Positions 1 through 26,992 of a DNA stretch of 26,992 nucleotides are shown here, piece by piece. The stretch covers positions 1-26,992 of the forward strand of contig MU633722.1 in the NCBI GenBank assembly GCA_026770595.1, read 5' to 3'. Within the stretch, counting starts at the first letter, position 1, and each line of letters begins with the position of its first letter. The stretch comes from Ochromonadaceae sp. CCMP2298 (Eukaryota; Sar; Synurophyceae; Ochromonadales; Ochromonadaceae). The notes below the pieces were generated by a model that was not told the origin of the DNA, did no database searches, and was given only the letters and a program-made list of their open reading frames with translations. Both the position numbers and the translations under genes were made by a program.

Positions 1-60
1 GGGGGGGGAGGGGGTCACTAATCCACACCCAACCAGCCCCCACCCCAGCCCAGACAACAG

Positions 61-3174: not shown

Positions 3175-6097
3175 TTAGTAGACCAGGAACACCAAGTTTA
3201 TGATGATGTTGAGTGCCGGCTGGCAGAAGATCATCAGGGCCAAGAAGCCCAGGCAGATGAGGCAGCAGAACAGCTGTTCGTAGGTAGGTGCCACACAGGG
3301 GTGGGTTTAATAAACGAGAGTTGGGGGGGTTAAATTCGTATTATAGTGAGGGTGGGTTCAACACATATAATAGCAGCAAAAGGTTAATATATAAATATAT
3401 AAATATATAAATATACGATATTATAATAGTGTAATGATACACAACACTTACCTGCGCACACAGGGCGGGGCCGCACAGCTCGCTGCCCAGCACGAAGGGG
3501 TTCCACGAGAACTGTGTGTTATGTGTGGGCAAAGAGTAGGGGTGGAGGGTTTGTAAGAGTTTATGAGGTATTCGGTATTCGATATTGGGTATAGGGTATA
3601 GGGTATAGGGTGTATAGGGTGATATAATATAGTATGTGGTATAGTATAGGGTAATATTATACAGGGCATAGTATAGGGTATATGGTGTATAGGGTATATG
3701 GTAATTAATATACATAGTGTATGGTATAGTACGTACTTTGAAGCGGCCTACGGGGGGGGGGCAGAAGGGGTTCGAGTTGGGCTCGCTGCGGCCCGCACCG
3801 GAGGGCATCACGAGCGCCTTGTCTTTGGGCCAGATCTGATGCGTGGGGGTCGAATACGTTTGTGTGCAGGGGGGGGGGTTAATAATTACACACAATAAAC
3901 ATTCACACAATGCACACCTGTACTGTGTAGATAGAGTAATATACACATGCTATACACAATATGCACGTACATACACATAATATACACAAACACCTGCACG
4001 GAGTAGCAGATACTACGCATGCGTTTGACGACAGTGGGATCTAAATACGCACACATGCACATACTAAACACATACTTATACATACTAATCGGATATTATA
4101 TGCAATAGTAGGGTTTAACTACACATAATATACACCCCCCTACCCCCCTACCTGCACGGAGTAGCAGATGGAACCCATTGGTGTGACGATTGTGGGATCG
4201 TCCCTGTCCTTAGTCTCCAAGTGATACCTGTTCAAGAGGTTGGGACATAGAGGGGGTTAATTAGGTTTTGTGGTATGGAGAGGGAGGGTTAAATAGATTA
4301 TGTGCCATAGAGGGGGTTTAATACATTATGTGCCAGAGGGTATTAAATATAGATATAAATATAAATATATTCACATATGTACACATCGGTTTCTGTATAC
4401 TATACACAGCACGTACCATGCGGAGTCCTCCGGGTCCAGGTCCCACAGGCCAGTCATGTTCTTGAAGGAGCTGATGAGGGACTTCAGCTCCCCGTCCTCG
4501 TCCTGTGGGTTTAATACACATTGTAGCGGAGAGAGGGGGGGTTTAATACATATTGTAGTGGAGAGGGAGGGGGTTTAATACACATTGTAGTGGAGAGGGA
4601 GGGGGTTTAATACATATTGTAGTGGAGGGGGAGGGTTGATACGCAGAGGGTAGAGTGAGGGGGGTTAATACACATTACAGTGTAGAGGAGGGGGTAAATA
4701 GATACACACACTAATCGGATACTTCATAATCAGATACACACCTCCTCCTTCTCCTCCTCCTCCTCCTCCTCCATCATGGGCTGACCCTCCGCATCCAGCA
4801 TGGGTTCCCCACTCTCGTCCAGCAGAGGCACCCCATCTGTGTGGGTTTAATTCATATTTGTGTATAGACAGAAGGGATTTAATACACATCCAAGGGGAGC
4901 GGGTGGGTAATTTAAATACAAGTAAAGTGGGGGAAGAGGTTAGGGAATGAGGTTCATTAACGAAAAGAAAAACGAGTAGAAAATGGGATACCCATAAGCA
5001 GTATGAATATTGGTTTATACGCGCGCATACCTGGCTCCTGCTTCTTTCTCCAGAAGGCCATCCAGGCGAAGCGAGAGGTGGTAGCCTTCTTTCTCTCTAC
5101 CACTACCTCTTTCTCTTCCTTCTTTTTACAGAGAGAGGGAGTTAATTACACATTCATGCTCAGAGAGGGGGTCAGATACAAAAATACATAGCAAGAGGGG
5201 TTTAATCATAGAGGGATTAAATAAATAAATAAATAAATAGGGTGTAAATACCTTCTTTTTACGCCTGAGAGGTTGGTTGGGTAGGATATTATTTTTACCC
5301 ACACCGCCCATACCCACCCCCATCGCCCCCTAGTTTAATGCATAGTATAGTAATGGTTACATAGAGGGGGTTGAATGCATAGAGAGGGGGTTGAATGCAT
5401 ACAGAGGGGGGTTTAGTACATAGAGAGAGGAGGTGCACATTATCTAGCGTACAGCGAATTGAAAAAAGTTACACCCGTTTGGGGTATTAAAAGGTGCATT
5501 TTACACCCATGTGGGGTATAAAAACGGCATTTACCTGCATCTCCTCGTCGCTGTCCTCGTCGTCGGAGTCCCTCTCCTCCCTCTTGGGCATCAGCTGGCC
5601 GATGGGTGCGAAGTCCGGGCGCTGGCTCCTGGGCACCGCCTTCGTCTCCTTGGTGTCCCCCTCCGTGGCGAGTAGGGGGCTCATCGTCACCTCCTTTTGA
5701 TGGGTGTGATGGGTGTGATGGGTGTGATGGGTGTGATGGGTTGGGTATTAAGGGTTTAACACATATGAGAGAGGGAGGTTGATACATAGTATAGTATAGA
5801 GGGAGGGGGTTTAAAATATAATCGAAGGGGGCTTATTGTCACCTCCTCCTCTTTCTCTTCCTCTTTCTCCTCCTCGAAGGGGATGTCCTCCTGAGGAGTT
5901 TAATACATATTGTAGTGTAGAAAAAGTGGGTTAAATACGTATTATAGTTTAGAGAGATAGGTTTAATACAAACTCCATATTATATTATATTACAAATAAA
6001 CATATATACTATTATACATAATATGCGTACCTCTGTATCCTCCGGCACCGCTCTCTGGAATGACTGGGTCTGGTTGTCCCTGCGAGCAGCCGCACCC

Positions 6098-6139
<42 letters not shown>

Positions 6140-9100
6140 TAATTACATATTGCGTAGGAGAGGGTTTAAGGGTTAATGGGTTTGTGGGTTTACATACAGT
6201 GAACAATATAACAAATATAAAACACACAACAAACAAACACACATCTACAAGTGTGCACCTTCTTGGTCTCGAACAGCTTCAGGGCAAGGTTCCTCTTGTA
6301 GGCCTTGCGGTAGTAGCGGCCCAGATTGATCGTTCCTACATAGAACGAGTGGGTTTAATACATATTACAGTTTCGAGGGGGTTTAATATGTAGAGAGTGG
6401 TAACAATATAAATAATATAAAATATAAAGCATAATATAAAATAGAATATAAAATATAATATATAATATATAATACATAAAATATAGCATATAGCATATAA
6501 CATAAATATACATAACATAAAATTATAAAGCATATCCTTTTATACGTAATAAAATATATTAAAGTGTAATAAAATATATTTAACTTAATATAACACACGT
6601 ACCCTCGCCAGCGCAGTCGTTCCACTTGAGAATGTCCCTGTCCCACAGCTGCAGGTGCAGGTAGGGGAACTTCATGGCGCGTGTGGAGTGGCCCAGCTCG
6701 ACGTCGAAGAGCAGCCGGTAGTTGTAGCTGGACTTGCCCTGTAGGTTTCATACACATTCATGGCAGAGAGAGGGTTAGTGAATACATATATAATACGTAT
6801 ATAATACATGCATAATACATACATAATACATATATATAATACATACATACATGTATGCATAGTCACCTTCTTCGCTCTCCAGTGAGTGTCGGTCTCTGCC
6901 GGCTTGCACCCCTCCGGCCAGCACTTGACGAAGAGGTCAGACATCCCCTCCAGAGAATCCATGGGCGGCACGTTCTTGCACTTCCAGATGACCACACGCA
7001 CCTGTGGGTTTAGTAGGTATTGTAGTATAAGAGGAAGGGGTTTAATACACATTACATTATAGGAGGGGATTAAAACACATTCAAGCACATCATAGAGGGG
7101 TTTAATACATAATAGTAAAGAAGGGGGTTGAACACAGTTATAGGACGCACCTCGAATGTTTGGGTGGGGGGGAGGGTGACGTCGTCGGGGGGGAAGGCAG
7201 AGGACACCTCGGGGGTCATGATATCCACCCTGGGTTTAATAGGTAGGTGTGCCATAGAGGGGGTGGGTATAATAGGTATTTACACAGAAAGGGAGGGATT
7301 AATGGATATTTTGTTTAGATGGAGAGGCTTTAATACACAGCATAGTGTAAGAGGGGGATTAATACACATTATAGTATAGATAGAGGGGGTTTAATACACA
7401 TTATAGTATAGTATAGTATAGTATAGTATAGGAGATGTCTTACCACAGCTCCAGCACTCCCTGGCCCAGCGTCTTGGAGGGGATGTAGATGGAGCGCCTC
7501 TCGATGGGCTTCGTCTGCCACCGCACCTGGTTTAATAGGATGGTGGGTTTAATACGTATTATAGTGTTAAGAGAGTGGATTTAATAGGTATAGCCGGGGA
7601 TATATAATTATACATATATATACATCATATACATAATATACATAATATACATATAAATATAAATATACATATAAATATATACATATACATATACATAATT
7701 AGTATAGTAGACGCCGTACCTTGGTGGGATCGTTGGCATCAGCACCGGGCATAAGAACATTCTCCTCTCCCAACTTCTGCCATCTGGGGAACAGGGGAAC
7801 AGGGGAACAGGGGAAAAGGGGAATCAGGGGAATCAGGGGAACAGGGAAATATGAGTGGGAATTAGAGGAAAATGAATATTTAACCCCTTTTTTTTTCGGC
7901 GTGGGTGTGCATTAAACCCACTCCATCTATACTATAAAGAGTATTAAACCCACATACCTTGCGTCGAACCACCTGTCTTCGAGGTCTATGGTGGTCTTTC
8001 CGATCAGGTCGTCGCTGCCTGTACAGTGTAGGTGTATAGGTGTAGTGTATAATAGTAAGTTATAATGGTTAGTTAATGTAGTACGTATATAGAATGTATA
8101 TTAGATAGTTTATATAGCATTATAGACATACATATACATATACATATACATATACTAATGAATAATAGTATAAAGTATGATACATTTAATATACCTATGA
8201 GGTCGGCGTCCCAGAGAGCTATCTGCAGCTGAGAGGTGCCGGGCAGTTCGCAGTTGAACGTGATCAGCTGCGGGGTGGAGGCAGGTAGGGCGGGGTAAGG
8301 GGGAAGGGGATATAGGGTTATGTTTGTTATTATGATTATTCGCGGTTAAAGAGATGAAAATTTTGAATAAATTTATATAATATTATATAATATTATATAA
8401 TATGATAAAGTATATTATACTGTATACTAAACACTCAACACTAAATACTATACTTTTAACGATTCTATTATACTATATCGTACCTTGTATAGATCCACGT
8501 CCTTGACGTCTTCTACGTAGTTTTCTCTGTCGTTGAAGCTCTCCTTGCCCAGGGACACCTACACAGGGACGTTGGGTTTAATTAAGGTTTTAGGGGTCAG
8601 GATATGGGTTAAACATTTTCAGTATACAGGGGGGGAAACTATTTGGGTGATAAAGGGTGTACAGAACTCACCTTTAGGTAGGGGTCAGAGTTGGCGGGCT
8701 GGCCAGCCATGTTGAAATCCATGGCCGCTAGTCCTTTCCCAGCCAGGCAGTAAAGGCGTACCACGTACCTAGGTGGGGTTAATTCACATGGTAAAATAGG
8801 GGGTTAAATAAACATGATAGTGTAGATAAAGGGGGTTTAATACACATTTATAGAGGCGCACTTCTCGGGTTTGAGCAGCTGCGCCATCAGCTCGGGGGAA
8901 AGCAGCGGCTCCTCGTCCTCCTCCAGCATCACCCTAACCAGCCCCTTTAACTTGCCCACCACCTAGAGTGTATGGGTAGGTTATGGGTAGATTAAAGGTA
9001 GATTATAGTATGGGTTAATTTTATAGTTGGGAGGGATTAAATGGTGATGTACGTATATGAGTAGAGTTATTTAGGTATTATGGGTCATTAAGGTAGTATT

Positions 9101-12100
9101 GAGGCATTACACAGGGTTATTCAAGCATCATGAAGGGGTTTCAAGGTATTATGAATTAATAAATGGTATGGGTTTTCCAAGTATTATGGGTTTTTTAATG
9201 TAAAGCTACCTTGAGCGTGCTGCCCATCATGCCCTTGGTGCTGCCCCGCATCAGCGAGTAGGTCTCGAATGGCGTGGTCTGCAGCTCCACCTATGGTAGA
9301 TGTAAGAGACAGTAAGGGGGATTAAAAGACAAAAACGTAATAGGAGGGGATACAAATTATAATGTATAGATATAGATGTAGATATATATAGGTATATATA
9401 TAAATAAATATTTATATAATGTACACATTACATAGTACGTACAGTGCACAGTACGTACCTCGAGCTCCTCTGCCAGCTTCTTCCTGCCCACTGCCCAGTC
9501 GGGGGGTTGGTCCCCATCATCCTGTGGGTTTTAATGCGTTCATAGGTGTATAAATATGGGTTTATATTGATGTGTTATTATGTTGTGTGGGTTTACAGGT
9601 GTTGGTAGGTGTGAGGATGTGGGGTTTATATGTGGTTTAAAGGTGTGGTTTTTATATGTGGTGGTTTATATGTTTTTTGTGTACATGTGTATTAAACCCA
9701 CCTGTGACCAGTCGGGATCCGCGAAGGCGTCTGATGCTGTCTTCTTCTTCTTCGAGCCGCCCGACGCGTCGATATAATTAAGCGCACCGAACACCCCCGC
9801 CCCTGTGTCCTCCTCTGTCACCTGGGTTTATATGTATTTTTGCGTATGTAAATATGGGTTTATATGTGTCAGTATTAGAATGTATCAATAGGGTTTAATA
9901 TAGTAGGTTTTTACAAGTATACAAAGTACATAATATAAATATATATAGTACACATATACATGATACATACACACATACACATATATAGTACACATACATA
10001 CCTTCCCCTTAAGATACTGGGCGATGGACACGGGCTCTGGCATAGCTACGAACTCGTCCTCTGCCTCCGCCTGTCGCTGCCTGTAAGTATCCGATTAGTG
10101 AGTATGCGATTAGTATCCGATTAGCGATTTATGGTTTTAGAGTATCCGATAAGTGTGTATACTATATAAATTATATAGCCCTGTTTATATACAATCATTT
10201 TATCAAACCCCTGTTTATGTTTACATGTATTGCATCAAACCCTTACCTCTCCATCTCGGCTACTTGTTCTTTCACAGAAGCGGGATCAAGACCACCCCCC
10301 AGGCCCCCCGCACCACCTATAGGTAAGGGTATGTGTTCGTAGGTTGCGGTTATATAGGTTAGTAAGGGTTTATAGTAATTAAGGAACATCCAAACATATA
10401 ATTATGATACACAATACATATACATATAACTACTTTAATAATACATAATACTATAGTATTATGTATATATTCAAATACTATATATACTACGTATACGCAC
10501 CTCTGTCCAACACTGTCTATATGTACTAACATATGTAATAACTATATATATACATTAACTATATATAATAGTATATATACATTATTCTACATACTAATCA
10601 GATACTAATCGGATACTAAACGGACACTAATTCGATACTAATCGTATACTGTATACTATATGCTAACATAGTACGTACCTCTATCCGTCACGGGTTGATA
10701 GAAAATGTCAGTAGCAGGAGCAATGTAAGTCTCCTCGCACCAGGGTATCTGTGTGGGTTTATATGTGATTGTAGGTGTGATGATGTGGGTTTATATGGTT
10801 GATTGCGTCAGTATAAGTGTGCGTGGGTTTATGCGAAAGTTAATGTATGAAGGTGGGTTTATATGATATCATGTTATGTTAGTGTGTGTTTGTGCGTGTT
10901 AGTGTGTATATAAATAGATACTATATAATCGAACTAATCGGATAATATATACATATACATACATACATGTATATACCTTCGTGCTCATATCGATCTGACA
11001 CACACCCACCACGGGCTTCAACCAACCCCCCAGGCGAGTGTCCCTGGCGCGAACCTGGGTTTAAATGTGTTTATAGGTGTGAGGATGTGGGTTTATATTT
11101 TGCGTGGGTTTATACGTGTTTATAAGTGTGTGGGTGTGGGTATATATGTTTATGTGTGTAAGAGTATTAAATTATAATAATATAATACATACGTACTAAT
11201 CGGATACTACATAGTACGTATCTGTAGCGGGGAGGAGAACACCGAGTGCTCAGTTGGCATCATAAATACTGTAATATGGAACTGTATACTATAATATACA
11301 AATATACAAATATACACATATACGGGGTATATGCACACATAATTATTCACATATACTATAAAAATGAAACTTTACCTGTAGGGGGGAGGAGAACACCGAG
11401 TGCTCGGGTAGCATCACTGGCATCACGATCTTCTCCAGGAAGTTGGGGTTCGAGGGGTCCGGTCTCTTCGAGGAGGCGGTTTCCAGCAGATAGGTGGAGC
11501 CGAATGAGTTCAACTCGAACTGCAAAAAGGGCGACTGCATGGCCTGGAAGTTGTAGGGACTCATGTGCCTGATGCCGATCAGGATCAGCTCCAGGTAGGC
11601 CTTCCGCGTGTCTGGCACGATGGGTGCGGGGTCGCGGGATATCTGTTTACCTGTGGGATTAATTGCAAATGTGTGTGTCAGTGTGTGCTAGTGTGTGGGT
11701 TTAAATAAATATATGTGTTTATGTACACTTTATGTACACTTTATGTACTCTATATGTACACTATATCTATGCATAATGCGTACCCAGGGTGGGGATGAGC
11801 TGCACCATGGTCAGCAGCTGGCCGGTGCTGTCTCCCGGCGTCTCGTAGAAGAAGTCCGACCACTGGGAGGGGGTGGGGAGCTCTGCGTTTGTGGGTTTAT
11901 ATGTGTATGTGTGTACACAAAGATTGGTTTGTATGTGTTTGTGTGGACATAAAGATGGATTTATATGTGTGGGTTAAAATGTGTTGGTTTATACAAATTT
12001 TGGGGATATTCTAGTGCGTGTGTGTACGTATATACGTACACATACTCTATAATCCAATACTAAAATCGAAAAATGATCGGATACTCTATAATCAGATACT

Positions 12101-15100
12101 ACATAGTACCTGCGTCGGGGTTGGCGGTGACGACAGAATCCTGCATCGAGTATGAGCATGTGCCTGCGGGTTGTGTGTTAGTGTGTGTTAGTGTGTGTTA
12201 GTGTGCGTTAGTGTGTGGAAGTGTGTGTTAGTGTGTGTTAGTGTTTATAGGAGTTATATAGTAAGTAAGGGTTAAGGAGGGATTATAGTATTATATTATA
12301 CTATTAATACTATTAATACTATTATACTATTATACTATTATACTATGATACTTATATTATAACACTATTACATCATTACATAATCATATTATACAATATT
12401 ATATATATTTATATAAGTAAATGTACCCAGGTAGTCGTCTCCGTCCAGATCGTAGTCGTACAGCCGGTAGGTGATCTGTGGGGGGTTAATACACATATCA
12501 GTATAGAAAGAGAGGGTTAAATACACATTATAGTAAATCATAAAGCATAGCATAGCATAGTATAGTGTATAGTATATCATAGCATACATCCATACATCCA
12601 CGTACCTGTGTCGCGTACTCGAAGTTGTTGTGCTCCGGAATCATCACGTCGTCGAAGATGAGCGTCTGGTAGTAGCCCGGGTACCTGTTCTTCTTGACCG
12701 TCTTGGTCTTCTGCACCTGGCCATTCAAAACCACCTTTGTGGGTTCCAGGGGAATAGGGGAATAGGGGAATAGGGGAATAGTGGGGGGTTTTTAGGATGT
12801 ATTACATACCGGGTTCGATAGAAAGGTTTTCGCGTACAAAAAATACCCACGATAATCGGATACTAATCGACTACTATATAATCGGATAACTATATAGTAC
12901 ATACCTTCACGTAGGGGTCACACGCACACACAAATATATACATATAACATATACATGCACACTAATCTGATACTGTATAATCGGATAACATATAGTACGT
13001 ACCTTCACGTATGGGTCGCACAGTCCGTTGGCGTCAGCTGCCGGTAAGTCCCTAGCCTGATACATGTGAACCCGCACCTGATAAGAAAATAGGAGGAATA
13101 GGTCAAAAGGTATAAGATAAGAGGGTAAAATACATGCATAGAGGGATTATGCTTACAAATACTAACATGAAATGTAGTTAGACACATATAATTCGTAATA
13201 CATACTACATTGTATATAAATACATGTGAGCATACCTGGTAGGGGGACGCCTTCTTCGCACTGTCCAGACAGGCCCTCCACTCCCCCGCCCTCTTCTCAG
13301 ACTCCTCGGCCGTGCCAAAACCCACCTGTGTGATGGGTTTTTATGGTATGCGTTAGTACGTAATGATGGATTATGAACATTTTAGGTTTCGATTGAACAC
13401 ACAGATATACAAAGATATTACATATCATTCATAAATATACACATCGTACGTACCTTCAGCAGCACGTTACCGGGGAAGACACCTGTGTTGAGGGCATCGA
13501 TGGACTTGTCCTCCTGCAGCAGGTACCACTCCGCGCCCTGTGTTGTAGCCGATTATATAGTATCCGATTTGTGTGTGTTTATTATTCGATTAGTGTGTGT
13601 AGTATCCGATTGTGTAGTATCCGATTGTGTAGTATCCGATTGTGTAGTATCCGATTAGTATATAGTATATAGTATATAGTATATAGTATCCGACTTTATA
13701 TGGCGTAGATGTGTATTGAAGTATTGAACCCACCTGATCGAATCCCATGAGAGTCCCCTGTTTGTCGACGACTGGCTTCAGGCGGGTAAAGCACACTGGC
13801 TTCATATCGTCTTTCACCTAGAGGGGAATAGGGGGATAGGGAATAGGGGAATAGGGGTATGGGGGAATAAGGGGATAGTAGGCAAAGGAAATATATTAGG
13901 TTAATAAAAGTAGAAAGAGGGGAATAGAAAATGTTTTTTGAGCCTCACCAAGTGCACGAATATGTCGGGAATCTGGGAAACGTCCAGAGGCATTGGGAAC
14001 TTGTCTGATTGTACGAACTCTAGCCAGCGGCACTGTCCGTTCTCGAATTTGGCGGGGCGGGTGGACAGCTCCTGGGTGCCTGGGTTTTAATACATATTTG
14101 GTATAGGATTAAGGGTTTTAAAACACGTGAATAAGAAGAAGGGGGTTAGTACGGGTATCAGATGGTATACTGAGATGATGAGATGAGTATTTCAAGCATA
14201 TATGGGTACTAACCCATGGATATCTGAATTCGAAGCGACTGACTGGTAATGGTGCCGAATGAGGGCAACTCGATACCGCTCAACACCAGGGCCTGAGAAG
14301 GTTAAAAAATAATAAAATTACCGAATAATAATCCAAACCGAATAATAATCCAATAAAGATAAAATAATAATAATAAAAATAAGATTCAATAATATTGGGG
14401 GATTAAGAACCCACCTGAAGGACGTACTCCTGGCAGGGAGGCTCCTGCACGCGCTTGATCCTTTTAGTAGAGGTAATGAGATCATAAGATTATAAGATTT
14501 TAAGGTAATAAGAATATAAGATTATAACAGAGTGGTAGTGGGAAATTTAAATTAAAATAATTATAAAATAGTTATAACAATTATTTTATAAAAATGACAA
14601 CAATTATTCAATAAGCGTACCTCTTAATGCGTCTTTTGAACGGCTCCATCTCGGGCTTGTCGTATTTCTCTGCAGGCCACGGGAAGGGTTTAATAGGTAG
14701 TGTATACCATGGGGGGGGGTAATAAGAGAGGGATGAGGAAGGGAAAAAAATGATAGGATTATAGGATGATAGGATAATAAAACCAATAGTATATATAAAT
14801 ATATAACATATATAATAATAATTGTTATATACAATCATTACCATACACAAGTAGATAATATATATAATATATAATAACATTAAGATATCAGCAATAGTAT
14901 ACCTGGGCGGCGCGACTCTATTCTCCAGCGCATCAGGCAGCGACCCTTGAACGCCGTCGCCTATGTGGGTTTAATACACATTATAGTATAAAAGGAGGGG
15001 TTTTAATAGGTAGGTGTCATGTAGAGAGGTAGGGTTATATATGTATGTGGTATATTGTTAGGGTTGGGGTGAGGGGGTATGAGTAAATATAATAAATGAC

Positions 15101-18100
15101 CCAATATTATCTAAATAACCCACAATTGCACAATGTAAATAGCTATTAAACCCACATACGTGTGGTACAAATATCTATTTAACCCACCTTATCGGGCACG
15201 TTATTGTAGTAGTCTACGTAGTCTATGTCCCCGTTGATGGTTTGCTGTATGGGAGGGTTAGGGTTAGTATGATAAGGAAGGGATAATAAAATGATAGGAC
15301 GAAAGGATGATAGGATAGTAAAATGATAGGATCATAGGATGATATTAATATAATATACCATGAGGATAATAAAATTAATATAATAATTACATCACTATAC
15401 CTGTGCTGCCTTTGCGACGCTCATCGCCCCCTTCTTGATGTTGCTCAGCAGTTTGTCGTTCTTGAACTCGGGCGCTCCGTACATGTTGTACCACTAGGAT
15501 ATACATATATATGTTGTGTATATAGAGGGGGTTACAAACACATATAGAGGGTATCTATTGGAATTAATACACATAGATAGGGTATATAGAGGGGGAGAGT
15601 ACACATTTACGGGGATTAATACACACGTATAAGGTACATATGGTATATATAGGGTTTTAGGGTGCATATGTTGTATATAGGGTATATAGGAGTGTGTACC
15701 TGCACATCGGTGGAGCATCCTGGCAGTCGATCCAGTCTGTTGTACCTCTCCACCACCTAGATGGGCATAATACATATTATAATATAGAGAGGGAGGGTTT
15801 AATACGCATCATAGTATAGAAAGGAGAATTTAATACACATTATAGCATAGCGAGGAGGTTTAATAATGTAGAGTTTAATAAAGGGTTGAATAGGTTAGTA
15901 AACAATAAGAGAGGGAGCGTTTAATTAATACTTACAAAATACATAATACATAATACATAATACATAGTACATGATCTTACTTGTCCGATTAATTCCGACT
16001 CCGTGGGGTCCTTGTCCCACACGCTGAAGCGGACCACCTGTGTGTGTGTGTGCGTGTGTGTGTGTGTGTGCGTATGTGTATAAGTATGTGTGTGTGTGTG
16101 GTTAAAAGACAAAGTAAGGTATAGGGGATGAGATTAAAAATACAGGTCGATAAAAAGACAAAAAACAGTATAGGGGAATGGGATAAAAAGACAAAGACGT
16201 ACCTGGGTCATGGTGGGTACGGAGACAGGGTACCACATCTCGTAGTTGAAGTCAGGATTGATCTCCCCTCTGCAAAGTCGGAAATTTTTAAGTCAAGAAT
16301 GTGTTAAGTCAGAAATGAGTAAAGTCAGGAATGGGTTGTATAATGTCAGGAAGAAGGGTTCAATAATGAAAAGGGTTATACACGTATAAACACACAGGGG
16401 TTTAATGCGCATACCTTGACTTTCCCTTGCGCGTGACCACCTTCGTCTTGATGGGGTGCCCCCCTGCGAATGAGTATTTGCAGAATGCGTCCGTGCCTGA
16501 GGGTTTAATAGGCAGGTGTTCCATACAGAGGGTGGGTTTAATAGGTGTAGGTAGGGGGGAGGGGGAGGGGTTAAATACACGGTATAGAAGGAGCGGGGGT
16601 GATGACCATCTGTGTATAATCATATATTTCTTACCTGCCTCCTTCAGCGTAGCGATGCCCATACCCACCTATGGGTTGTATAGAGGGGGGGGTTATTACG
16701 GTATAGGGGGGGTTAAGACACACATACGTTATTGAAAGGGAGGGTTAATAAGGTGGGGTAAATACAGTAAATATGTGTGGTAGAGAGGGTTTAAACACGC
16801 ACTGGAAGAGGGGGGGTTTTATACACACATTTATAAACATATTAATATGAAACACACCTTCCCGTCCATGACAGGCAGCCCCTCGCACCTGTAGATACAG
16901 ATTAAAGACAATAATAGGGGGATTAAAAGACAGTTTATAGGATTTTAGGATTTTAGGCTTATAGGCTTATAGGCTTATAGGATTTGTAAGATAATACTGT
17001 AATATATGATATGGAGGTAGATCACGCACCTATAGATGCTTGCCACCACGAATTTCCACTCCTTTCTGATGGTGGGCGTGGACAGGCACAGGGAGCCCAC
17101 GTCCCCACCCACAGCGTTCTCTGGGGGTTTAATAGGTAGGTGTCACATAGAGGGGGTGGGTTTATTCGGTAGGTGTCACATAGAGAGATTTTAATACGGT
17201 TTAGGGGAGGTTAATAGGTGTGGTATAGAGGTGCTTAATGCACATACGGGGTTAATACACACATAGAGGGGGTTAATACACACATAGCGGGGGTTAATGC
17301 ACACATAGCGGGGGCAAATACACACACACAATTACCTATAAAGGATCTACACATATTATGGGTCAATACACACACGTACCTCTCTTTATCTCTGCTGCTA
17401 GCTCTGCGGCCTCGTCGTGCACATACAGCTTCTCTCCGGGGCCGATGATCTGGATGGAGATTTTGAGATAGCCCTATAGATGGAGATAGTGGGTTAATTA
17501 CATTGTAATGGGTTTAAATACACTTTAAATACACTTAAGATAATGTGTATTAAACCCCCTGAATAGTATAATGTGTATTTAACCCACTCTATTTATACTA
17601 TGATGTGTATTAAACCCACCTGCACGCCCACGTCTTCTTTGTCCTCATCGTCCATGAGGGGCACCCAGGCTCTGTACAGCTCGTGCTGCAGAGTGTTTTA
17701 GAGTGGTATGTAAGTTAGTAGTGAATTAGTATGCAAGTATTAATACGCGTATAGTGTTATGTAGTTTTAGTATGTAGTGATGGAGTTATTTAGTTATGGG
17801 GTGGGGGGGGGGGTATTAAAAGACAATATAGTAGTATGGGAGGTTAAAAGACAGTAGAATAGTAAGATCATGTTATTTAAAGACAGTATATTAGTAGGAG
17901 TATGGTATTAAAAGACAGTATATTGGTATACACACGTACTAATCGGATTCCTTATAATCGTATTCTATATAATCGGCTACTATACACACCTGTTTGTTCA
18001 TCGTATAAATCATGGAGGCGTCGATGGCATAGGCTCCGATCATGGTGTTCCCAGCGAAGGGGATGGAGTTGGAATCGTAGCAAGCGATGCGCAGGAGCCC

Positions 18101-21100
18101 GTCTGTTAGGGGGTAAGGGGGTAAGGGGGTTCAGTAAGAGGGGTTAGTAAATATACAACACACAATACAACATACGATACAGCATGCGACACACTCTACG
18201 ATCTGATACACATATACATATAGTAGGCACCTTCGAAGGTCTCCTTGTCCAGTCTCTTCATGTCGAAAATCAGCAGCTCGTCGTACACACAGCTGGTCAC
18301 CTATGGGTAGGGGTTTAATGTACATGATTGTATCGAGGAAGGGGGTAACGTACATTAAATACGGACAAAAAACGTATAAAATTCATATAAAATACATATT
18401 ATATTCATATAAATTACATATAAAATATAAATATACATACATACATAAATATACATATTACTACGTTTTCATACCTGGTTGATGACGATGGTGTTCTGCT
18501 TCTGCCCGAAGCACTCCACAAACACCACGGGATCAGAAGTTCCGTCCATGTTCTCTGCCTTGAGGTCGCGGGCCTCGATTATGTGCACCTGGATCTGGTA
18601 GTCCCCGTCCTTTATCTGGATATCTGACAGCACCTTCCTCTGCTCCTCCTCCTTCTTCTTCTGATCCTCCTTCTCCTCCTCCGTCTGGGGTCGTTCCAAC
18701 TCAGTGATTTTGTCCAGCTCGTCCTACGACACGGTGAAGATACGGTCAAAATTCGGTGGAAATGTGAAAACAGGTGACAATACAAAAATAGGTGATACGT
18801 GTACGATACGGTGTCAATACGACAAGGGTGTAACTTACGTCGCTGCCCGGGTCTGACTCGGATCCAGACCCCCCCGCAAACTCCGCCAGCTTACCGCCGA
18901 AGGCCGCCAATTTGCCTGTATAGTATCCGATTATTGACAATCCGATTATATAGTAGGAGTAAGTAGGTAGTAGGTAGTAGGTATTAGGAGAGAAGAGGTA
19001 TTAGTTAGTGTATAGTATCCGATTATTGAGTATCGATTAGTGTGTGTGTGTGCATGTGTGTGAGTATACATGTGTTTGTGTATACATAATGTGTGTGTGT
19101 TGATGTGTTGATGTGTTTATATATATATACACATATATACATGTATACTATATGTATATACACATAGTGCATATTGCTCACCCAGGGTGGATTTCTCGTA
19201 GGCTTCTTTTTTCTTGCTGATACTCTCCAGCACCTCCATGGAGAATTTCCAGTGAAGCATGACTTCCACCTCACCCCTGTACAGTAACGTGTAGTATAGT
19301 AAGAGGGGGTTTAATAGATTAGTGGGTTAAATAGGTGTAAGTTGTGCATAGAAGGAGGAGGTTAATATATATAATTATATAAAGGATACACAATTATAAT
19401 ATAAAAGATACACATTTATAGTATACAGTATAAATTTATATACTAAATATAAATTTATACATATATAACTCACCTATCGACCCCGTCCACCACCATGGTT
19501 CTATTACGCAGCTTGTACCACTTCTTTACGGGCTTTTTGTCATCAAAATGTCCCAGGGGAATGGAGTAGCGGCCCATGAACGAGGCGCCCTGGTAGTGTG
19601 GTGGATTTAATACATATTTTAGTATAGAAGGAGAGGTTTTAATAAAAATTGTAGTATAGAAAGGGTGAGTTAAAAACATATTATGAATCGTATACGGAAA
19701 TTTATTATAAATGTTATATGTTATATGATATATGGATATATGTTATATGTTATATGTTATATGTTGAATGTTGAATGTTATATGTTATATGGGATATGGG
19801 ATATGGGATATGGGATATATGGGATATGTGGGTTGTATGGGTTAAATAGAGTCATAGATGGATTTATATGTGGGATTAAAATTTGGGATTATATATGGAT
19901 GTACATGGGTTATAAATATGTGCAATAGTAGGGTTTAAATACACATACCTATACAGACACACATACATACACATATAAGCCCATACCTTGATGTCGTTGT
20001 GATCCTCCACAGTCACGATGAGGCTGAGGCTGCTGTCCGTCAGCTCGGTGAACACGTGCTTGGAGTTCCACACGGGGTAGACGGACTTGCGGATGTAGGG
20101 GGTCTTCTGGGAGTCGAACCCCTCGATCTTCAACTTCACTTGGGGGTCGGAAGAGCCCCCGCCGAAGATGGATTTGTCTTTAGAAAGGGTTAAAGTTTTA
20201 GAAGACGGGGTTATTAGAGTCAAGGGGGGATGTGTTAGTAAAGGATTTGGGGAAGGGTTGGTGTATATTTTACTATTTAGGCAAAAATAAGTAAAAACCT
20301 ACCCTTGACCTCGAGGCGGCGCCCCTGTACGACCGTTACGTGCAGTTCGTTGGGGCGTAATTCCTATGAGAGGTTTTTAGAATACGCGATAAAAAAGGAT
20401 AAAAAGATAGGGTTTAAACTGATATTAGAGGAAAGGCGAGGGTTTTATAAACATATGGGAGAAATGGAGAGATTTAAAGACATTTTATGGGGTTTTCAAA
20501 TATATACATATACATAACAGCACATACATATACATATACAAACCCTTACCTCCAGCTCAGCCTTCTCCTCCTCTGTCATATCGGCCTCGTCCTCGAGAGT
20601 CATAGGCACCTATGGGGGATATAGAGATTATGGGTTGTGGGTTATGGATTATATGGGTTATGGATTATATGGGTTATGGATTATATGGGTTATGGGTTAT
20701 GGGTTATGGGTTATGTGTTATATGGGTTATGGGTTATATATGGGTTATAGATGTGTGTGGATGGATAATATATGGATGATACATATAATATAGATATAGA
20801 TATACGTATAACCGGAGATATAGTATAGTATACATACATAGTATAGTATAGTATAGTTTCGTACCTCTGAAGGGGTTATAGGACGGTCGAAGCTGATCCT
20901 CAAGTGCAGCTCTCCGGTTACGATCTTCATCCTTCCAGAGAGGTTCAGAGGATACCACATATCAGAGGCTTCGCCAGAAGGGTCTACGGTGTCCAAGTCG
21001 ATATGAATCTCTCCTGTGTTTCGTGCACATTGTAGTATAGGGTATATATATAGTATAGGGGGTGGGGGGGGTAATGCACAATATGGTATTGTGAGATAGG

Positions 21101-21499
21101 GTTTAATGAACAATATAGTAGAGTGAGAGAGGGTTTAATGCACGATATAGCATAGAGGGGGGGGTTGTACGTACCCATTGGCACATCTGATGTGGAGAAG
21201 GTAGCCTTGTGGGTGAGAACCAGGTTGAGGCTGGGTAGCTCTCCGTCCGTATCTAGGTTGTAGTTGTATCCAAACGTGAATTTCTCGCCCCACCTGGGGG
21301 CCAGGGTCTTGCTCTGCGGTTTGCACTTGAATGACTCCTTCTTCACCTCGCGGGTGGCGAGATCAGTCAGAAACACGGCCAGGTTAGGGTCGGAATCGCC
21401 CGTCTTTGTGCACTTCACGAGGTCGCGCCCTTCCAGCACCTCCACCACCAGGGTGCGCATTTCCGAGGCCTGCGTGATGGATTTGCGCCTGCCGAACAT
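3175..21499 (-). CDS. Ferlin: multi-C2-domain, tail-anchored membrane-fusion protein (65 exons)
   Basis: Ferlins are large tail-anchored proteins with serial C2 domains. They bind Ca2+ and acidic phospholipids and act in vesicle fusion and membrane repair. I traced 65 exons, from ATG at 21497-21499 to TAA at 3175-3177. All introns are GT...AG and every junction keeps phase. Exons sum to 6030 nt (2009 residues), a normal ferlin length. Approximate residues: C2-1 13-140, C2-2 179-290, C2-3 398-510, C2-4 570-690, C2-5 795-900, C2-6 951-1075, a C2-like segment 1088-1205, C2-7 1400-1510, C2-8 1575-1700, a charged linker, then a C-terminal hydrophobic anchor at about 1978-2006. Ferlin landmarks include WYNMYG, GVLELWVDIM, GRSEPNSNPF before the anchor, and DDLIGKTTIDLEDRW. 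C2-6, C2-7 and C2-8 keep the Asp pattern of Ca2+-binding loops. The least certain boundaries are the exons at 5031-5118 and 5252-5329. Introns make up about two thirds of the gene and average 190 bp. Confidence 0.93.
3994..4040 (-). pseudogene. Pseudo-exon: partial copy of ferlin exon 4152-4227
   Basis: The minus strand matches the last 48 nt of the exon at 4152-4227 at about 39 of 48 positions, including the CAG|GT donor. It reads DPTVVKRMRSICYSVQ where the real exon reads DPTIVTPMGSICYSVQ. It sits in the intron just downstream. It has an acceptor-like TTTAG, but used in place of the real exon it would give TG+A, a stop, and used as an added exon it would shift the frame. It is probably a relic. 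Confidence 0.7.
4503..4735 (-). repeat. Tandem family A intron repeat
   Basis: Five to six copies of a roughly 35-42 bp unit, each carrying TATTAAACCCCC on the minus strand followed by CTCTCCACTACAATGTG-type sequence, run through this ferlin intron. The first unit abuts the acceptor (TATTAAACCCACAG at 4503-4516). The far end holds family B motifs (CTAATCGGATA at 4710-4720). Confidence 0.8.
5217..5238. repeat. AAAT microsatellite
   Basis: Perfect run of the tetranucleotide AAAT/TAAA in a ferlin intron next to the donor of exon 5252-5329. Confidence 0.9.
5691..5842 (-). other. Intron with tandem-duplication footprint at both splice sites
   Basis: The intron start on the minus strand (GTGACAATAAGCCCCCTTCG) nearly repeats the start of the next exon (GTGACGATGAGCCCCCTACT). 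Both are preceded by GGAG. This is the pattern expected when an AGGT-containing exon segment is tandemly duplicated and the two AG|GT copies become donor and acceptor. The intron interior holds GGTGTGAT repeats at 5701-5740 and family A units. Confidence 0.7.
6098..6137. repeat. GT microsatellite followed by GTGG repeats
   Basis: GT repeats abut the acceptor of the exon at 6031-6096, giving a (CA)n CAG acceptor on the coding strand. Four GTGG/GGGT units follow. Confidence 0.9.
6259..7783 (-). other. Ferlin exons 49-54: C2F-type domain and its leader
   Basis: Exons are 7720-7783, 7444-7526, 7151-7229, 6867-7001, 6603-6738 and 6259-6335. The leader reads GVLELWVDIMTPEV. The domain starts FEVRVVIWKCKNVPPMD. 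It continues with MSDLFVKCWPEG, then TDTHWRAKK, LHLQLWDRDILKWNDCAGEG and TINLGRYYRKA. This is the best-preserved ferlin signature in the window. Confidence 0.93.
7227..7440 (-). repeat. Family A units tandemly repeated in a ferlin intron
   Basis: Several TTTAATA(C/G)-type units spaced about 40 bp fill the intron between exons 7151-7229 and 7444-7526. One unit closely matches the unit in the plus-strand permease intron at 905-945. A short TATAG array lies at 7402-7430. Confidence 0.75.
7786..7848. repeat. GGGGAACA/GGGGAATCA minisatellite
   Basis: Seven or so short units lie beside the acceptor of exon 7720-7783. Related GGGGAATA units occur at 12750-12782 and 13813-13875, and GGGAACAG-like units occur inside the permease first exon at 300-425. 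Confidence 0.85.
7958..8768 (-). other. Ferlin exons 45-48: C2E-type domain
   Basis: Exons are 8672-8768, 8484-8558, 8195-8267 and 7958-8018. The start YVVRLYCLAGKGLAAMDFN leads to NSDPYLKVSLGKE, then QLQIALWDADLIGSDDLIG and TTIDLEDRWF. Loop 1 and loop 3 aspartates are retained, which suggests calcium binding. Confidence 0.9.
9522..9701 (-). mobile_element. Introner-like intron, family A, inverted ends
   Basis: On the coding (minus) strand the intron begins GTGGGTTTAATACACATG and ends GCATTAAAACCCACAG. The ends are therefore inverted repeats of GTGGGTTTAAT. Interior GTGGGTTTATATG-type motifs repeat. No coding capacity is visible. I read it as a non-autonomous element acting as an intron; this is inference. 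Confidence 0.55.
10501..10518 (-). pseudogene. Possible short copy of the donor end of exon 10679-10748
   Basis: The 3' end of the exon plus donor (GGATAGAG|GTACGTA) resembles GGACAGAG|GTGCGTA here, about 180 bp downstream in the intron. It is short and imperfect, so chance similarity is possible. Confidence 0.35.
10585..10678 (-). repeat. Family B repeats at the donor of exon 10679-10748
   Basis: On the coding strand, just after GTACGTACTATG, come five divergent copies of a TAGTATCCGATTAG-type unit. Similar arrays follow the donors of exons 12110, 13003, 17990 and 10977 and of the eIF5 exon at 24571. Confidence 0.75.
10977..11882 (-). other. Ferlin exons 35-37: extra C2-like segment after C2D
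   Basis: Exons are 11784-11882, 11376-11650 and 10977-11054. The 275-nt exon encodes KAYLELILIGIRHMSPYNF, then a P-N-F motif (NPNFLEKIVMPVMLP), followed by VRARDTRLGGWLKPVVGVC. This agrees with the degenerate C2 found between C2D and C2E in ferlins. Residue positions are about 1050-1205. Confidence 0.75.
11222..11262 (-). pseudogene. Pseudo-exon: copy of the 3' end of ferlin exon 11376-11650
   Basis: About 36 of 41 bases match the last part of the 275-nt exon, including CTACAG at its end. The donor has become AT (ATACGTAC) instead of GT, so this copy cannot splice as the original does. It lies about 150 bp downstream in the intron and is followed by a family B motif. Confidence 0.75.
12171..12243. 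repeat. GTGTGTTAGT 10-bp tandem repeat
   Basis: Seven near-perfect copies of the unit GTGTGTTAGT lie next to the acceptor of exon 12110-12163. Confidence 0.9.
12905..12923 (-). pseudogene. Short copy of the donor end of ferlin exon 13003-13077
   Basis: Seventeen of nineteen bases match the end of the exon (encoding CDPYVK). Both copies are followed by a family B donor stretch (GTACGTACTATATG and GTATGTACTATATA). The duplicated unit thus includes the exon end, the donor and the repeat. Confidence 0.65.
13454..14460 (-). other. Ferlin exons 25-29: central C2-like segment
   Basis: Exons are 14415-14460, 14214-14292, 13949-14079, 13734-13817 and 13454-13537. A C2-like start (ALVLSGIELPSFG) is followed by LRIQISMG, then CRWLEFVQSDKFP and FVHLVKDDMKPVCFTRL. 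This corresponds to the degenerate C2C region and its extension. Calcium-loop aspartates are not obvious. Confidence 0.7.
13538..13733 (-). repeat. Intron with a family B tandem array
   Basis: The array at 13599-13690 has several TAGTATCCGATTGTG units on the plus strand. On the coding strand these read as AATCGGATACTA, the inverse of the donor-side orientation seen elsewhere. Here the motif lies on the acceptor side. Confidence 0.75.
14621..15493 (-). other. Ferlin exons 21-24: WYNMYG region after the fourth C2
   Basis: Exons are 15401-15493, 15188-15244, 14903-14960 and 14621-14669. WYNMYGAPEF matches the W-N-x-YG motif found between C2B and C2C of ferlins. The segment continues through FKGRCLMRWRIESR, corresponding to the conserved GR-L strand of the family. 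Confidence 0.8.
14961..15187 (-). mobile_element. Introner-like intron, family A, inverted ends
   Basis: On the coding strand the intron begins GTGGGTTAAATAGATATTTG and ends GTATTAAACCCACATAG, giving inverted terminal motifs. A second GTGGGTTTAATAG lies about 30 bp inside the donor end. No open reading frame of note. Confidence 0.55.
15700..17120 (-). other. Ferlin exons 14-20: fourth C2 domain cut into very small exons
   Basis: Exons are 17030-17120, 16858-16888, 16635-16668, 16415-16496, 16203-16269, 15981-16037 and 15700-15756. Two are only 31 and 34 nt. The translation includes FVVASIYRCEGLPVMDGK, GEINPDFNYEMWYPV and VVRFSVWDKDPTESELIGQ. It keeps DKD and a later acidic residue of calcium loop 3. 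At 16269 the acceptor giving AGGGGAG preserves frame; the one two bases further on does not. Confidence 0.87.
16039..16100. repeat. GT microsatellite
   Basis: Interrupted (GT)n beside the acceptor of exon 15981-16037. Confidence 0.9.
17121..17379 (-). repeat. Family A tandem units in a ferlin intron
   Basis: At least six units of GGTTAATACACACATAG or GGTTTAATAGGTAGGTGTCACATAGAG type fill this intron, the first abutting the acceptor. Confidence 0.8.
17474..17619 (-). mobile_element. Introner-like intron, family A, inverted ends
   Basis: On the coding strand it begins GTGGGTTTAATACACATC, repeats a GGGTTAAATACACATTATA unit twice, and ends with TTAACCCACTATC then CTATAG. The donor-side and acceptor-side motifs are inverse complements. 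Confidence 0.55.
17990..18723 (-). other. Ferlin exons 9-11: third C2 domain, with a charged leader
   Basis: Exons are 18475-18723, 18231-18300 and 17990-18102. A Glu/Lys-rich coiled-coil-like stretch precedes VHIIEARDLKAENMDGTSDP, a classic C2 loop 1. The domain closes with LRIACYDSNSIPFAG and MIGAYAIDASMIY, matching the ferlin C2B region. Confidence 0.88.
19474..20609 (-). other. Ferlin exons 3-6: second C2 domain
   Basis: Exons are 20550-20609, 20303-20363, 19987-20177 and 19474-19589. The domain starts at ELHVTVVQGRRLEVKD. It continues with SSDPQVKLKIEG, then VYPVWNSKHVF, and ends with FMGRYSIPLGHF, where ferlin C2 domains usually carry an IG(x) strand. Loop acidic residues are sparse here, so calcium binding is doubtful. 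Confidence 0.85.
20629..20755. repeat. GGGTTATGGATTATAT tandem repeat
   Basis: Variable-length units of GGGTTATG and GATTATAT repeat through the intron between exons 20550-20609 and 20865-21013. A similar TATGTTATATG array lies at 19711-19820. Confidence 0.85.
20865..21499 (-). other. Ferlin exons 1-2: first C2 domain
   Basis: Exons are 21175-21499 and 20865-21013. After a short basic N-terminus (MFGRRKSITQ) comes a C2 fold start, LVVEVLEGRDLV, then DSDPNLAVFL, a typical first calcium-loop region. The chosen Met is the first in frame. The junction joins G to GA, giving DVPMGEIHIDL in frame. Confidence 0.85.
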
Positions 21500-21962
21500 G
21501 CTGTCTGAGATCTGAGGTCACAAGTAAATCTGCAACTTGCAACTCGAAAAGCTCTCCGTACTCTGTAACCCTCTACTCTGCGCGATGCGCTAGCCAGCTG
21601 GACCACAGGGTTGGCGGAACAAGAGCAAGGGCTGCAAAGTGGCAGGTTCTATTTTCTCTTGCTCTGTTAACAAGCTCACCACAACTGAAATGATCCCCTT
21701 TGTTTTTGGAGGTGATGTTGAATGAATTTTTTAGCCACACAGAAATTGGCGTCCGTATTATAGGTCTGTATAATTAATGCGCCTCTATTTGTGAAACAAG
21801 CATTTTTTTGGATATTTTGGTGAAGGATTTTGGGGAAGAGGGGAATGATTATCTTACACACAACTAAACTCATTCTCAGCTCACGGATCGCAGAAATTGA
21901 TCTCGTGCAGTAATTTCGTCCCGAGGGCGGAACAGGGGTCTTTCTGGACCGAGGGTTTTAGT

Positions 21963-25462: not shown

Positions 25463-25467
25463 GGTGG

Positions 25468-25646: not shown

Positions 25647-26337
25647 CTTAGGGGCTGGGTGGGTGTTCGAATCATACAAGAGTAGTCCGAGAAATGTGTT
25701 CGCGGTTGCGTTGGCTTTGGAATTGCAAGCGTTGTTCCTAGCGCGAGCTAGATTTAAAACAAGAGGTGGTGGTGGTCTTGAAGTACCAGTTCGGGTGATA
25801 GCCCAGAACAGATTGTGAGAGCGGATGGTGTGTGAGACGCAGGAATGTTCAACTGTTCAACCCTTTGCACTGATTATTGGGCTGAGGTCTTGTTTGCACA
25901 CACCACCACCCTTCCTTCTGATGGCAAAACATTGCAGGGACCGGATTTCAAAACCCACAATAATACTGAAAAAAACAACCACAAACTCTATTCAGACACC
26001 CAAATCGGGGTTTTAATGAAAACGGCAATATGTTTTGAAAATGGTCAAGGTTTGTGTAAGTTTGAGTTGCACCATTCAATTGCCAGCGGACGCGGTGAAT
26101 GTGGGTGTTGGAGAGCTGTTGGTGGAGATGGAGTTGGGAAGGTCCAGGTGAACAATTGTTGGATCCCTACTTGTCCTGTGAGCGTGAGCCGAGCAGAAGA
26201 GTGGAGCGTCTGAGAGACGGAGAGAGCAGCAGAGACAGCAACAGAGAGAGATAGACAGAGACAGAGACGGAGACGGAGAGAGAGGCAGAGAGAAAGACAG
26301 CACTCACTCAACCTCAACCTCAACCTCAACATCAACT
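25647..26337. promoter_or_regulatory. Divergent promoter region of eIF5 and the POL5-like gene
   Basis: The two genes start about 0.9 kb apart on opposite strands. The region has mixed composition, with a CTAGCGCGAGCTAG near-palindrome at 25738-25751 and a purine-rich GAGACA/GAGAGA stretch at 26213-26300. Four CTCAAC units lie just before the ATG (26304-26336). No TATA-like element can be assigned with confidence. Confidence 0.45.
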
Positions 26338-26607
26338 ATGTCCAAGGACAAGGCCTTTCTGCAGTTCTTCTGGGACCTGGCGGAGGACGAGGCGGGCCTA
26401 AGGGTGGCGGGGGCGGCCGGGCTGCTGCGCTTTGTGCACACACATCCCGAGGAGCTGCAGTATGCAGTTGGAAGACTGGTGAAAGGGCTGGCCAGTCCCA
26501 GACACAGCGCCAGATTGGGCTTTGCCTCGTGCTTGGCGGGCCTGCTGCAGGCGGAGGAGGGGGTGGATGTGAGGGAGGTGCTGGAGCTGCTGGACGAGAA
26601 CAGCAAG
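26338..26607 (+). CDS. POL5/MYBBP1A-like nucleolar protein, first exon (3'-partial)
   Basis: The exon runs from ATG at 26338 to AAG|GTGAGT at 26607/26608: 90 codons ending in phase 0. The protein begins MSKDKAFLQFFWDLAEDEA and continues through LQYAVGRLVKGLASPRHSAR then LGFASCLAGLL. This matches the N-terminus of the POL5/MYBBP1A family, where FW-LA and RLV-GL-S-R-SARLGF are conserved. Those HEAT-repeat proteins act in the nucleolus in rDNA transcription and ribosome biogenesis; despite the name POL5 is not a functional DNA polymerase. The rest lies beyond the window. The short exon and in-frame start without an upstream Met support the call. Confidence 0.8.
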
Positions 26608-26992
26608 GTGAGTTTAATAGATTATGTGGTATAGAGGAAGGGGGTTGAATACATATATTGTTGGGGGGCAGTAGGTGCAAGGGTGCATATGTGTATAGGT
26701 ACATAGGTGCATAAGTGCATAGCATATTAGCATAGCAGGGTAGTAGCGCATTCACACACGTACTACCACACGTGCTGTACGTACTGTGCACTGTACGTAC
26801 TGTACATCCATCTTACATCCCACCCCCATCTTATATCCTCTCCCCCCTACCTCTCCTCCCCCCTATTTTTCCCTCCCCCCTACTTCCCCACCTCCCTAAC
26901 CCCTACCCCCCTCTCCGTACCCCTACATCCCCCTACCCCCTACCTAACCCCCTATCCCCCCACACCGCACCCCTACCTCCCCACATCCCTCA
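26608..26992 (+). other. First intron of the POL5-like gene (incomplete)
   Basis: The donor GTGAGTTTAATAG is followed by GGGGGTTGAATACATA, a family A unit in the opposite orientation to that seen at acceptors. The last 180 bases are C-rich, with CCCCCTACC-type units and a few T runs. No exon is visible before the window ends. Confidence 0.6.

Follow-up and report, generated by a model that had tools for sequence, protein, structure and literature searches.

How large numbers of new introns come into being has long been a question, and the contig MU633722.1 of Ochromonadaceae sp. CCMP2298 raises it for a single stretch of DNA. This stretch of 26,992 nt (contig C56 of an assembly of 11.2 Mb in 724 contigs) was analysed as a whole and is called the window here. 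A 12-mer, GTGGGTTTAATA, or its inverse recurs at the ends of introns in its genes, among them a long gene for a ferlin and a gene for the translation factor eIF5. Were these introns made by a mobile sequence, and if so, by which kind? Our analysis shows that the 12-mer is one end of a dispersed minisatellite with a unit of about 32 bp. With a probability of roughly 0.6, we favour introner-like gain and growth of introns by insertion of this minisatellite, probably at staggered breaks, with mobilisation being presumed. The repeat is introner-like in its behaviour and lies outside the inverted-repeat transposon type.

A dispersed minisatellite in introns

Exact copies of GTGGGTTTAATA are found six times in the window and its inverse five times (11 in total). 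Allowing up to two mismatches, 90 matches of either orientation were counted, compared to 5.2 ± 2.1 in shuffled sequences (maximum 12). According to Tandem Repeats Finder, the motif forms one end of a head-to-tail repeated unit of about 32 bp, and the repeat is a minisatellite as defined by head-to-tail units of 10–60 bp. Exactly 32 bp separate 51 of the 95 pairs of 22-bp cores that lie no more than 70 bp apart, with 29 bp as runner-up (n = 7), and the spacing of profile hits has its mode at 32 bp as well (41 of 157 pairs). Two types of unit can be distinguished, GTGGGTTTAATACACATTATAGTATAGAaGGa and the sister type GTGGGTTTAATAGGTATGTGTCACATAGAGAG. One unit was detected in 35 of 100 arrays, and two or more in the remaining 65. 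The first-pass annotation had seen longer bodies that are shared between introns. Such bodies are indeed shared, and they take the form of tandem copies of the 32-bp unit, most clearly in the first of these arrays:

4503..4741, minus strand: ferlin intron with about six tandem units (array 4507-4695, period 32, 6.1 copies)
15757..15980, minus strand: ferlin intron with about three tandem units (array 15768-15865)
21014..21174, minus strand: ferlin intron with about 2.5 tandem units (array 21072-21150)

The unit is not restricted to the window. A 23-bp pattern, searched genome-wide with up to three mismatches, gave 172 forward and 69 reverse matches, and the reversed control gave none. An 89-bp composite of units had 45 matches, and at five places, query included, the identity was 93–100%. 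No match was obtained in viral contigs with an exact 24-mer, a search that may leave out near records. Three pairs of contigs of this assembly (G000), C209/C223, C629/C271 and C11/C15, overlap over kilobases with 100% identity. We considered them as alleles, but complete identity rules this out and marks them as assembly duplicates, so that copy counts are slightly inflated.

Introns were assigned by our own ab initio finder, which is based on dynamic programming, was trained on the window itself and assumes GT-AG introns. In the window models G+C content is 33–36% for introns and 58–60% for exons. All 71 matches to the main unit profile in the window fall into modelled introns, as do 48 of the 49 matches to the sister profile, the remaining one being exonic, and neither profile matches the 3247 intergenic bases of the window. 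Units are present in 38 of 71 filtered introns of the window. To these we added introns of sampled contigs, giving 225 filtered introns, of which 104 carry units of either type (87 in sense orientation only, 13 in antisense only, 4 in both). Similar sequences are thus found in introns of many genes. Since most contigs were picked for carrying the pattern, these 104 of 225 introns do not give a rate for the whole genome, and 4 of the 104 are counted twice, as locus L044 repeats part of locus L045.

In 67 of the 225 introns, the acceptor has a sense unit at a distance of no more than 40 nt. On the sense strand the unit ends with TATTAAACCCAC towards the acceptor, while in antisense it begins with GTGGGT. 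In the gene models the antisense motif can begin at the donor, and at two loci (L055 and L029) a duplicated ...CAG is located at the modelled acceptor. With our own models, up to two mismatches and a limit of 30 nt, the earlier claim that the motif sits at intron ends in all four genes of the window holds. It is acceptor-proximal in 19 introns of ferlin (n = 70), 3 of eIF5 (n = 8) and 2 of the third gene (n = 7), where at least 15, three and one had been claimed. By the same limit, the inverse motif is donor-proximal in six of the 70 introns of ferlin and in one of the two introns of the fourth gene. The gene models are as follows:

3175..21502, minus strand: ferlin gene, 71 exons and 70 introns in our dynamic-programming model, product of 2016 aa with seven C2 stretches
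22716..25464, minus strand: eIF5 gene, model with nine exons and eight introns; exon 1 matches solved eIF5 with E = 1e-31
1..2108, plus strand: third gene, partial model with seven introns; a putative 'permease' by the label of the first-pass annotation
760-945 and 1314-1455, plus strand: introns of the third gene with acceptor-proximal motif, from gene model and motif search
26200..26759, plus strand: fourth gene, partial model; antisense motif at the donor of intron 26608-26698

Duplicated exon sequence and the gain of introns

In search of target duplications, we aligned the left and the right flank of each array with the units masked (95 of 100 arrays had sufficient flanking sequence), and used flanks of different arrays (399 pairs) as control. 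Duplications with a score of at least 14 flank 12 of the 95 arrays compared to 1.9 expected, and 5 arrays reach a score of at least 20 (0.5 expected). About half of the 12 high-scoring duplications contain exon sequence; the others, among them L034 2072, L031 and window positions 6349 and 9685, are unit-like, intronic or AT-rich. Exon-containing repeats include, besides the 22-bp and 50-bp repeats of the window listed below, 37 bp in L029 (35 identical), 20 bp in L034 (18 identical), 19 bp in L027 (17 identical) and an exact 29-bp repeat in L033 that consists of 23 bp of exon plus GTGGGT. Below a score of 14 we found 21 bp with 18 identical positions in L038 and an exact 13-bp repeat in L030, where a further exact repeat of 19 bp was spotted by eye.

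The ends of introns were also compared with the splice-site register fixed, for the 178 of 225 introns with at least 110 bp and after low-complexity matches were dropped. Nine of these introns show direct repeats of variable length at both ends with a score of at least 9.5, compared to an expectation of 0.37. These nine comprise two weak cases, namely window 5122-5251, which is A-rich, and L026 2218-2382, a short tandem repeat. The longest of these in-register duplications belong to unit-bearing introns. Direct repeats of exon sequence with variable length at both ends of an intron are a feature of insertion at staggered breaks. Unrelated filler, a further feature, is not what we see, since the inserts of unit-bearing introns belong to one unit family. 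Duplicated sequence in the window is found at these positions:

5694..5842, minus strand: ferlin intron with two sense units and a 22-bp flanking direct repeat (20 of 22 identical, flank alignment)
5674..5695 and 5826..5847, unstranded: the two copies of the duplicated exon sequence of 22 bp (20 of 22 identical)
3992..4041 and 4150..4199, unstranded: two copies of a 50-bp direct repeat, diverged to 41 of 50 identical positions, where exon and intron meet, with a weak unit match (4111-4130) in between
16889..17029, minus strand: ferlin intron without unit matches, in-register 13-bp direct repeat at its ends

Elsewhere, in an intron without a clear unit (L038:1121-1221 on contig C28), the exon end GGAGACTTC...AGGTATGCAT is duplicated inside the intron. 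Border duplication seems to happen with other filler as well, to judge from this intron.

Single loci illustrate the layout. In the gene for NDUFA6 (L029), a 461-bp intron with 14 units, which make up 91% of its length, lies between MELEETLMQ and WKQKTHLLRI. The best solved NDUFA6 aligns over this position free of gaps, and the exon end ACTCTaATGCAG recurs at the acceptor as ACTCTcATGCAG, with 11 of 12 bases. The gene for bleomycin hydrolase (L055) has an intron between TVDFLQ and NVAGG with 16 of 19 bases repeated, and again the best solved protein is free of gaps at this position. Both introns interrupt a conserved block. The same layout is seen in L027, whose protein has no Pfam match, and in window intron 5694-5842, where the ferlin stretch is variable and acidic. 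We read all four as probable intron gains, with the last two depending on the gene models.

Introns created by insertion should be lacking in relatives. Relatives were counted at an identity of at least 60%, giving 30 for GRP94 (L045; among the best 120 of 437), 47 of 59 for ferlin and 99 of 110 for eIF5. Matches to eIF5 that name an organism include the dictyochophyte Rhizochromulina marina (63%) and Bremia (59%); those to GRP94 include a brown alga (53%) and those to ferlin include Phaeothamnion (64%). By these matches the host is probably a stramenopile. In GRP94 the introns at aa 94, 105, 132, 207 and 235 carry units, and those at aa 25 and 157 are free of them. Reading frames run uninterrupted over the positions aa 105, 132, 157, 207 and 235 in all 30 relatives listed, over aa 94 in 29 and over aa 25 in 14 of the 30. 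Some records may be transcripts, which are no proof of intron absence; contigs of 11–99 kb and intron-like tails argue that part of them are genomic. Three GRP94 relatives (P0171, P0174 and P0228) look genomic, since they lie on contigs of this size, and ahead of about aa 84 their residues are non-homologous, as if a different intron were present. In ferlin, uninterrupted open reading frames of many relatives cross four introns with units, and most of the other relatives stop short of these positions. Intron 1 of eIF5 is crossed as well, and is shared by P0001 and P0002 (99%). Thus, relatives with at least 60% identity lack introns of both GRP94 and ferlin. Judged from these alignments, loss of the introns in the relatives appears less likely than gain. 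The window introns concerned, and a further eIF5 intron with units, are:

7230..7443, minus strand: ferlin intron with units; in 17 of 47 relatives, an uninterrupted reading frame spans the position
7002..7150, minus strand: ferlin intron with units, crossed in 23 of 47 relatives
6739..6866, minus strand: ferlin intron with one unit match, motif 2 nt from the acceptor, crossed in 35 of 47 relatives
6336..6602, minus strand: ferlin intron with units, crossed in 19 of 47 relatives
24910..25113, minus strand: eIF5 intron 1 with two unit matches, crossed in 61 of 99 relatives
23690..23907, minus strand: unit-bearing eIF5 intron whose motif lies 2 nt from the acceptor

Two observations were made on the relatives themselves. 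At aa 114-122 of eIF5, the apparent intron of at least three relatives near intron 1 is either a parallel gain or a shared intron with shifted ends. In ferlin, the frames of many relatives stop at about aa 129-132 (query aa 129-135), while the ferlin of the window has its intron at aa 143; this suggests an intron that is shared among the relatives and lacking in this genome.

Taking these data together, gain and growth of introns could proceed as follows. The minisatellite, often as a short head-to-tail array, would insert into genes and duplicate about 12–37 bp of the target. Because the duplications vary over this range, we infer insertion at staggered breaks, with the array presumably acting as filler or template in break repair. 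Splice sites would be supplied by the duplicated exon end (often ...CAG), by the unit, or by both: a sense unit would place TATTAAACCCAC near the acceptor, and the GTGGGT start of an antisense unit can serve as donor. An insert within an exon would become a new intron, and an insert at an existing splice site would enlarge an intron. Provided that the modelled splice sites are those used in the cell, the surviving inserts would be the spliceable ones, and such selection would favour sense arrays.

A bolder version holds that there is a class of introners which are mobile minisatellite arrays and not transposons, and that one family, recurrently captured at staggered breaks, drove much of the recent intron gain in this lineage. 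We regard this as a tentative proposal that falls short of being probable. In the same version, and with the same reserve, the unit would begin like a donor when read on one strand and provide acceptor-side sequence when read on the other, and the targets would be transcribed genes.

Several observations weigh against gain by insertion of this unit. The unit-free GRP94 introns at aa 25 and 157 are also crossed in relatives, so gain is not limited to this repeat. In-register duplications are equally common with and without units (5 of 87 unit-bearing introns, 0.25 expected; 4 of 91 unit-free introns, 0.21 expected) and therefore mark intron gain in this genome generally rather than gain by the unit, and most unit-bearing introns show no duplication. 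Near intron 1 of eIF5, P0006, P0102 and P0107, and perhaps P0038 and P0059, lose the match within a few codons, and by this evidence some relatives may have an intron close by. The acceptor is not a unique location, since 41 of the 225 introns have a sense unit no farther than 40 nt from the donor. Distances between motif and acceptor, determined for 191 of 454 predicted introns, are spread, with 18 of 44 matches at 0–4 nt and the others up to the limit of 30 nt. The repeats that flank the 89-bp composite differ between L030 and L034, yet both contain TGAGAGGC, and the composite may thus have been copied together with some flank. We had taken the differing flanks as an argument for mobility of the composite, and this argument is weakened by the shared TGAGAGGC. 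Finally, the data comprise one assembly with modelled splicing.

Competing explanations for the repeat

Not every insertion needs to have created an intron. A splice site that already existed marks the end of the duplicated piece in L033, L038 2807, L030 (the 19-bp repeat), L029 2148 and window 3992-4199, which also speaks against gain: at these sites the insertion lengthened an intron (growth, not gain). Arrays duplicated at existing splice sites, as in L033, L038 and L029 2148, are in line with the view that all the introns are old, and that the repeat merely grows and spreads within them by minisatellite mutation and gene conversion, never creating an intron. Many introns contain few units amid longer unrelated sequence (median unit coverage 0.27 in 85 introns), which fits this view too, as does the equal frequency of duplications in introns without units. 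What it leaves unexplained is that many of these introns are absent in relatives, that exon repeats stand on both sides of an array within an exon (NDUFA6, bleomycin hydrolase, L027, ferlin), and that the NDUFA6 intron consists almost entirely of units. We consider it unlikely that the repeat acted in old introns alone, although this explanation survives best among the alternatives to insertional gain.

Somewhat less likely still is a retroelement-like process, in which array RNA is copied into nicked DNA and leaves target duplications of variable length. It would account for the range of 12–37 bp, the units lie within genes and are presumably transcribed, and reverse-transcriptase domains occur at four places in the genome, three of them above the cut-off. 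A fixed 3′ end or tail, however, is not established for the arrays. By eye a fixed array end looked plausible in L030, L034, L050, L055 and L058, but in view of the motif-to-acceptor distances of 0–30 nt we do not claim it. Moreover, in the part of the genome that was covered, none of the reverse transcriptases, nor of the transposases, was linked to the unit.

The first-pass annotation proposed introners, that is, non-autonomous DNA elements, with inverted ends in three ferlin introns, and a non-autonomous DNA transposon could have GTGGGTTTAATA as terminal inverted repeats, with the arrays as later internal expansion. The three introns differ:

14961..15187, minus strand: ferlin intron with an antisense unit at the donor and a sense unit at the acceptor (profile matches: three sense, two antisense)
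17474..17619, minus strand: ferlin intron in which antisense units extend from the donor and further inverse copies lie close to the acceptor (the model splits it at 17555/17559; the reading as a single intron is ours)
9522..9701, minus strand: ferlin intron with exact GTGGGTTTAATA at the donor; a weaker inverse at the acceptor by eye (profiles: no sense, two antisense matches)

Inverted ends are thus clear in the first intron, complex in the second, and not borne out by the profiles in the third, where no sense unit was detected. Over all 225 introns, 67 have a sense unit near the acceptor and 17 have an antisense unit near the donor; both features occur together in 2, compared to 5.06 expected if they were independent (odds ratio 0.29, two-sided Fisher p 0.10). 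Inverted ends in the three introns are no more than random combination gives, and as pairing is not above chance, they are not the design of the element and a transposon with terminal inverted repeats is not supported. The predominance of introns with units in sense only (87 of 104) points in the same direction. In addition, the body is a tandem array, and instead of the 3–9 bp expected for introners with terminal inverted repeats, the duplications comprise 12, 13, 19, 19, 19, 20, 21, 22, 29 and 37 bp, shorter ones being undetectable. The genome does contain transposase domains (11 places with DDE_Tnp_4, three with MULE, two of them above the cut-off, and three with the hAT dimerisation domain), yet the lack of a link to the unit applies to them as well. 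Despite the inverted ends in up to three introns of the window, we consider a transposon of this type improbable. Of the introner proposal, the dispersed and intronic location, the occurrence at acceptors in sense or at donors in antisense, the target duplications in several genes and the absence in many relatives stand; the inverted-repeat type is not supported.

Two related ideas were discarded. A fixed target duplication of the 2 bp AG, suggested by intron 9522-9701, is not reflected in the identity of donor and acceptor flanks, which is near expectation at each position, and the repeats that were found are longer. Only intron 17474-17619 looks like a foldback element whose inverted arms consist of tandem units, and here, too, the pairing is not above chance.

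That the motif is merely the branch-point or acceptor consensus of the organism can practically be dismissed: it lies near acceptors and resembles a branch point followed by a short C-rich stretch, but the final 50 nt contain TATTAAAC in 38 of 92 introns with units and in no more than 2 of 106 introns without them, the two groups have the same C-rich acceptor consensus without TATTAAAC, and conservation extends across genes beyond the 22-bp search core (unit positions 23–26 conserved in 101, 95, 95 and 111 of 128 units). The unit is not a general splice or branch-point signal of this organism, and the outcome that would have overturned the first-pass annotation did not occur.

Relation to known intron gains and further repeats

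We compared insertion of the minisatellite with known systems. Gozashti et al. surveyed introners in Micromonas, Aureococcus, Florenciella and others in 2022 and reported target duplications of 3–9 bp, with inverted ends in part of the families (PMC9860276). Like these introners, the minisatellite forms one family across the introns of many genes, would obtain splice sites from its own sequence or the target, and is patchy among relatives; unlike them, it has a tandem minisatellite body, duplications of 12–37 bp and inverted ends not above chance (PMC9860276). Low-complexity families were filtered out in this survey, and minisatellite introners of the present kind may therefore have been missed (PMC9860276). 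Neo-introns of Daphnia pulex were attributed to repair of staggered double-strand breaks, with exon direct repeats of 4–12 bp (PMC4202315). Variable-length exon direct repeats at opposite ends of a new intron are common to both systems, whereas most inserts in Daphnia could not be traced to a source and here one repeat family provides many of them (PMC4202315).

In the 'mirage' minisatellites of amphioxus, which concern single genes, the exon-intron border itself is tandemly repeated (PMC3087553). Duplicated borders tied to new intron positions are seen in both cases, but in the present genome a unit found in many genes sits between two copies of the border (PMC3087553). Introners of Amoebophrya have direct repeats of 3–5 nt and inverted repeats of 8–20 nt, and were defined on introns with non-canonical splice sites (PMC7789003). 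They share with our introns the repeated nature and direct repeats that overlap splice boundaries, and they differ in that our models assume GT-AG and that inverted pairing is not above chance (PMC7789003). Dispersed minisatellite introners are absent from the titles and abstract openings of open-licence literature among the matches listed.

Two described routes of intron gain, by introners derived from transposons and by filler DNA in staggered breaks, seem to come together in this genome, with a shared repeat family as the filler. Surveys that drop low-complexity or repetitive intron families may undercount intron gain. The combination of duplications and arrays makes the proposed gains directly testable in sister strains.

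Other repeats were noticed in the course of this work. Repeats of about 170–730 bp with 79–91% identity occur within 8 kb in L018 (contig C10), and the gene finder calls them coding. Separately, a GH92 query against solved structures gave no match. A dispersed repeat resembling TATCCGATTAGT, or its inverse, is present in ferlin introns at 10086-10650, 12840-12990, 13558-13689, 17930-17980 and 18916-19040, and is partly tandem with units of 11–15 bp. A second introner-like family of about 180 bp is represented by L030:378-560 and 1252-1430 (contig C530), which lie in introns of one gene model and are 92% identical; including the query, this family is found at 15 genomic places with 70–100% identity.

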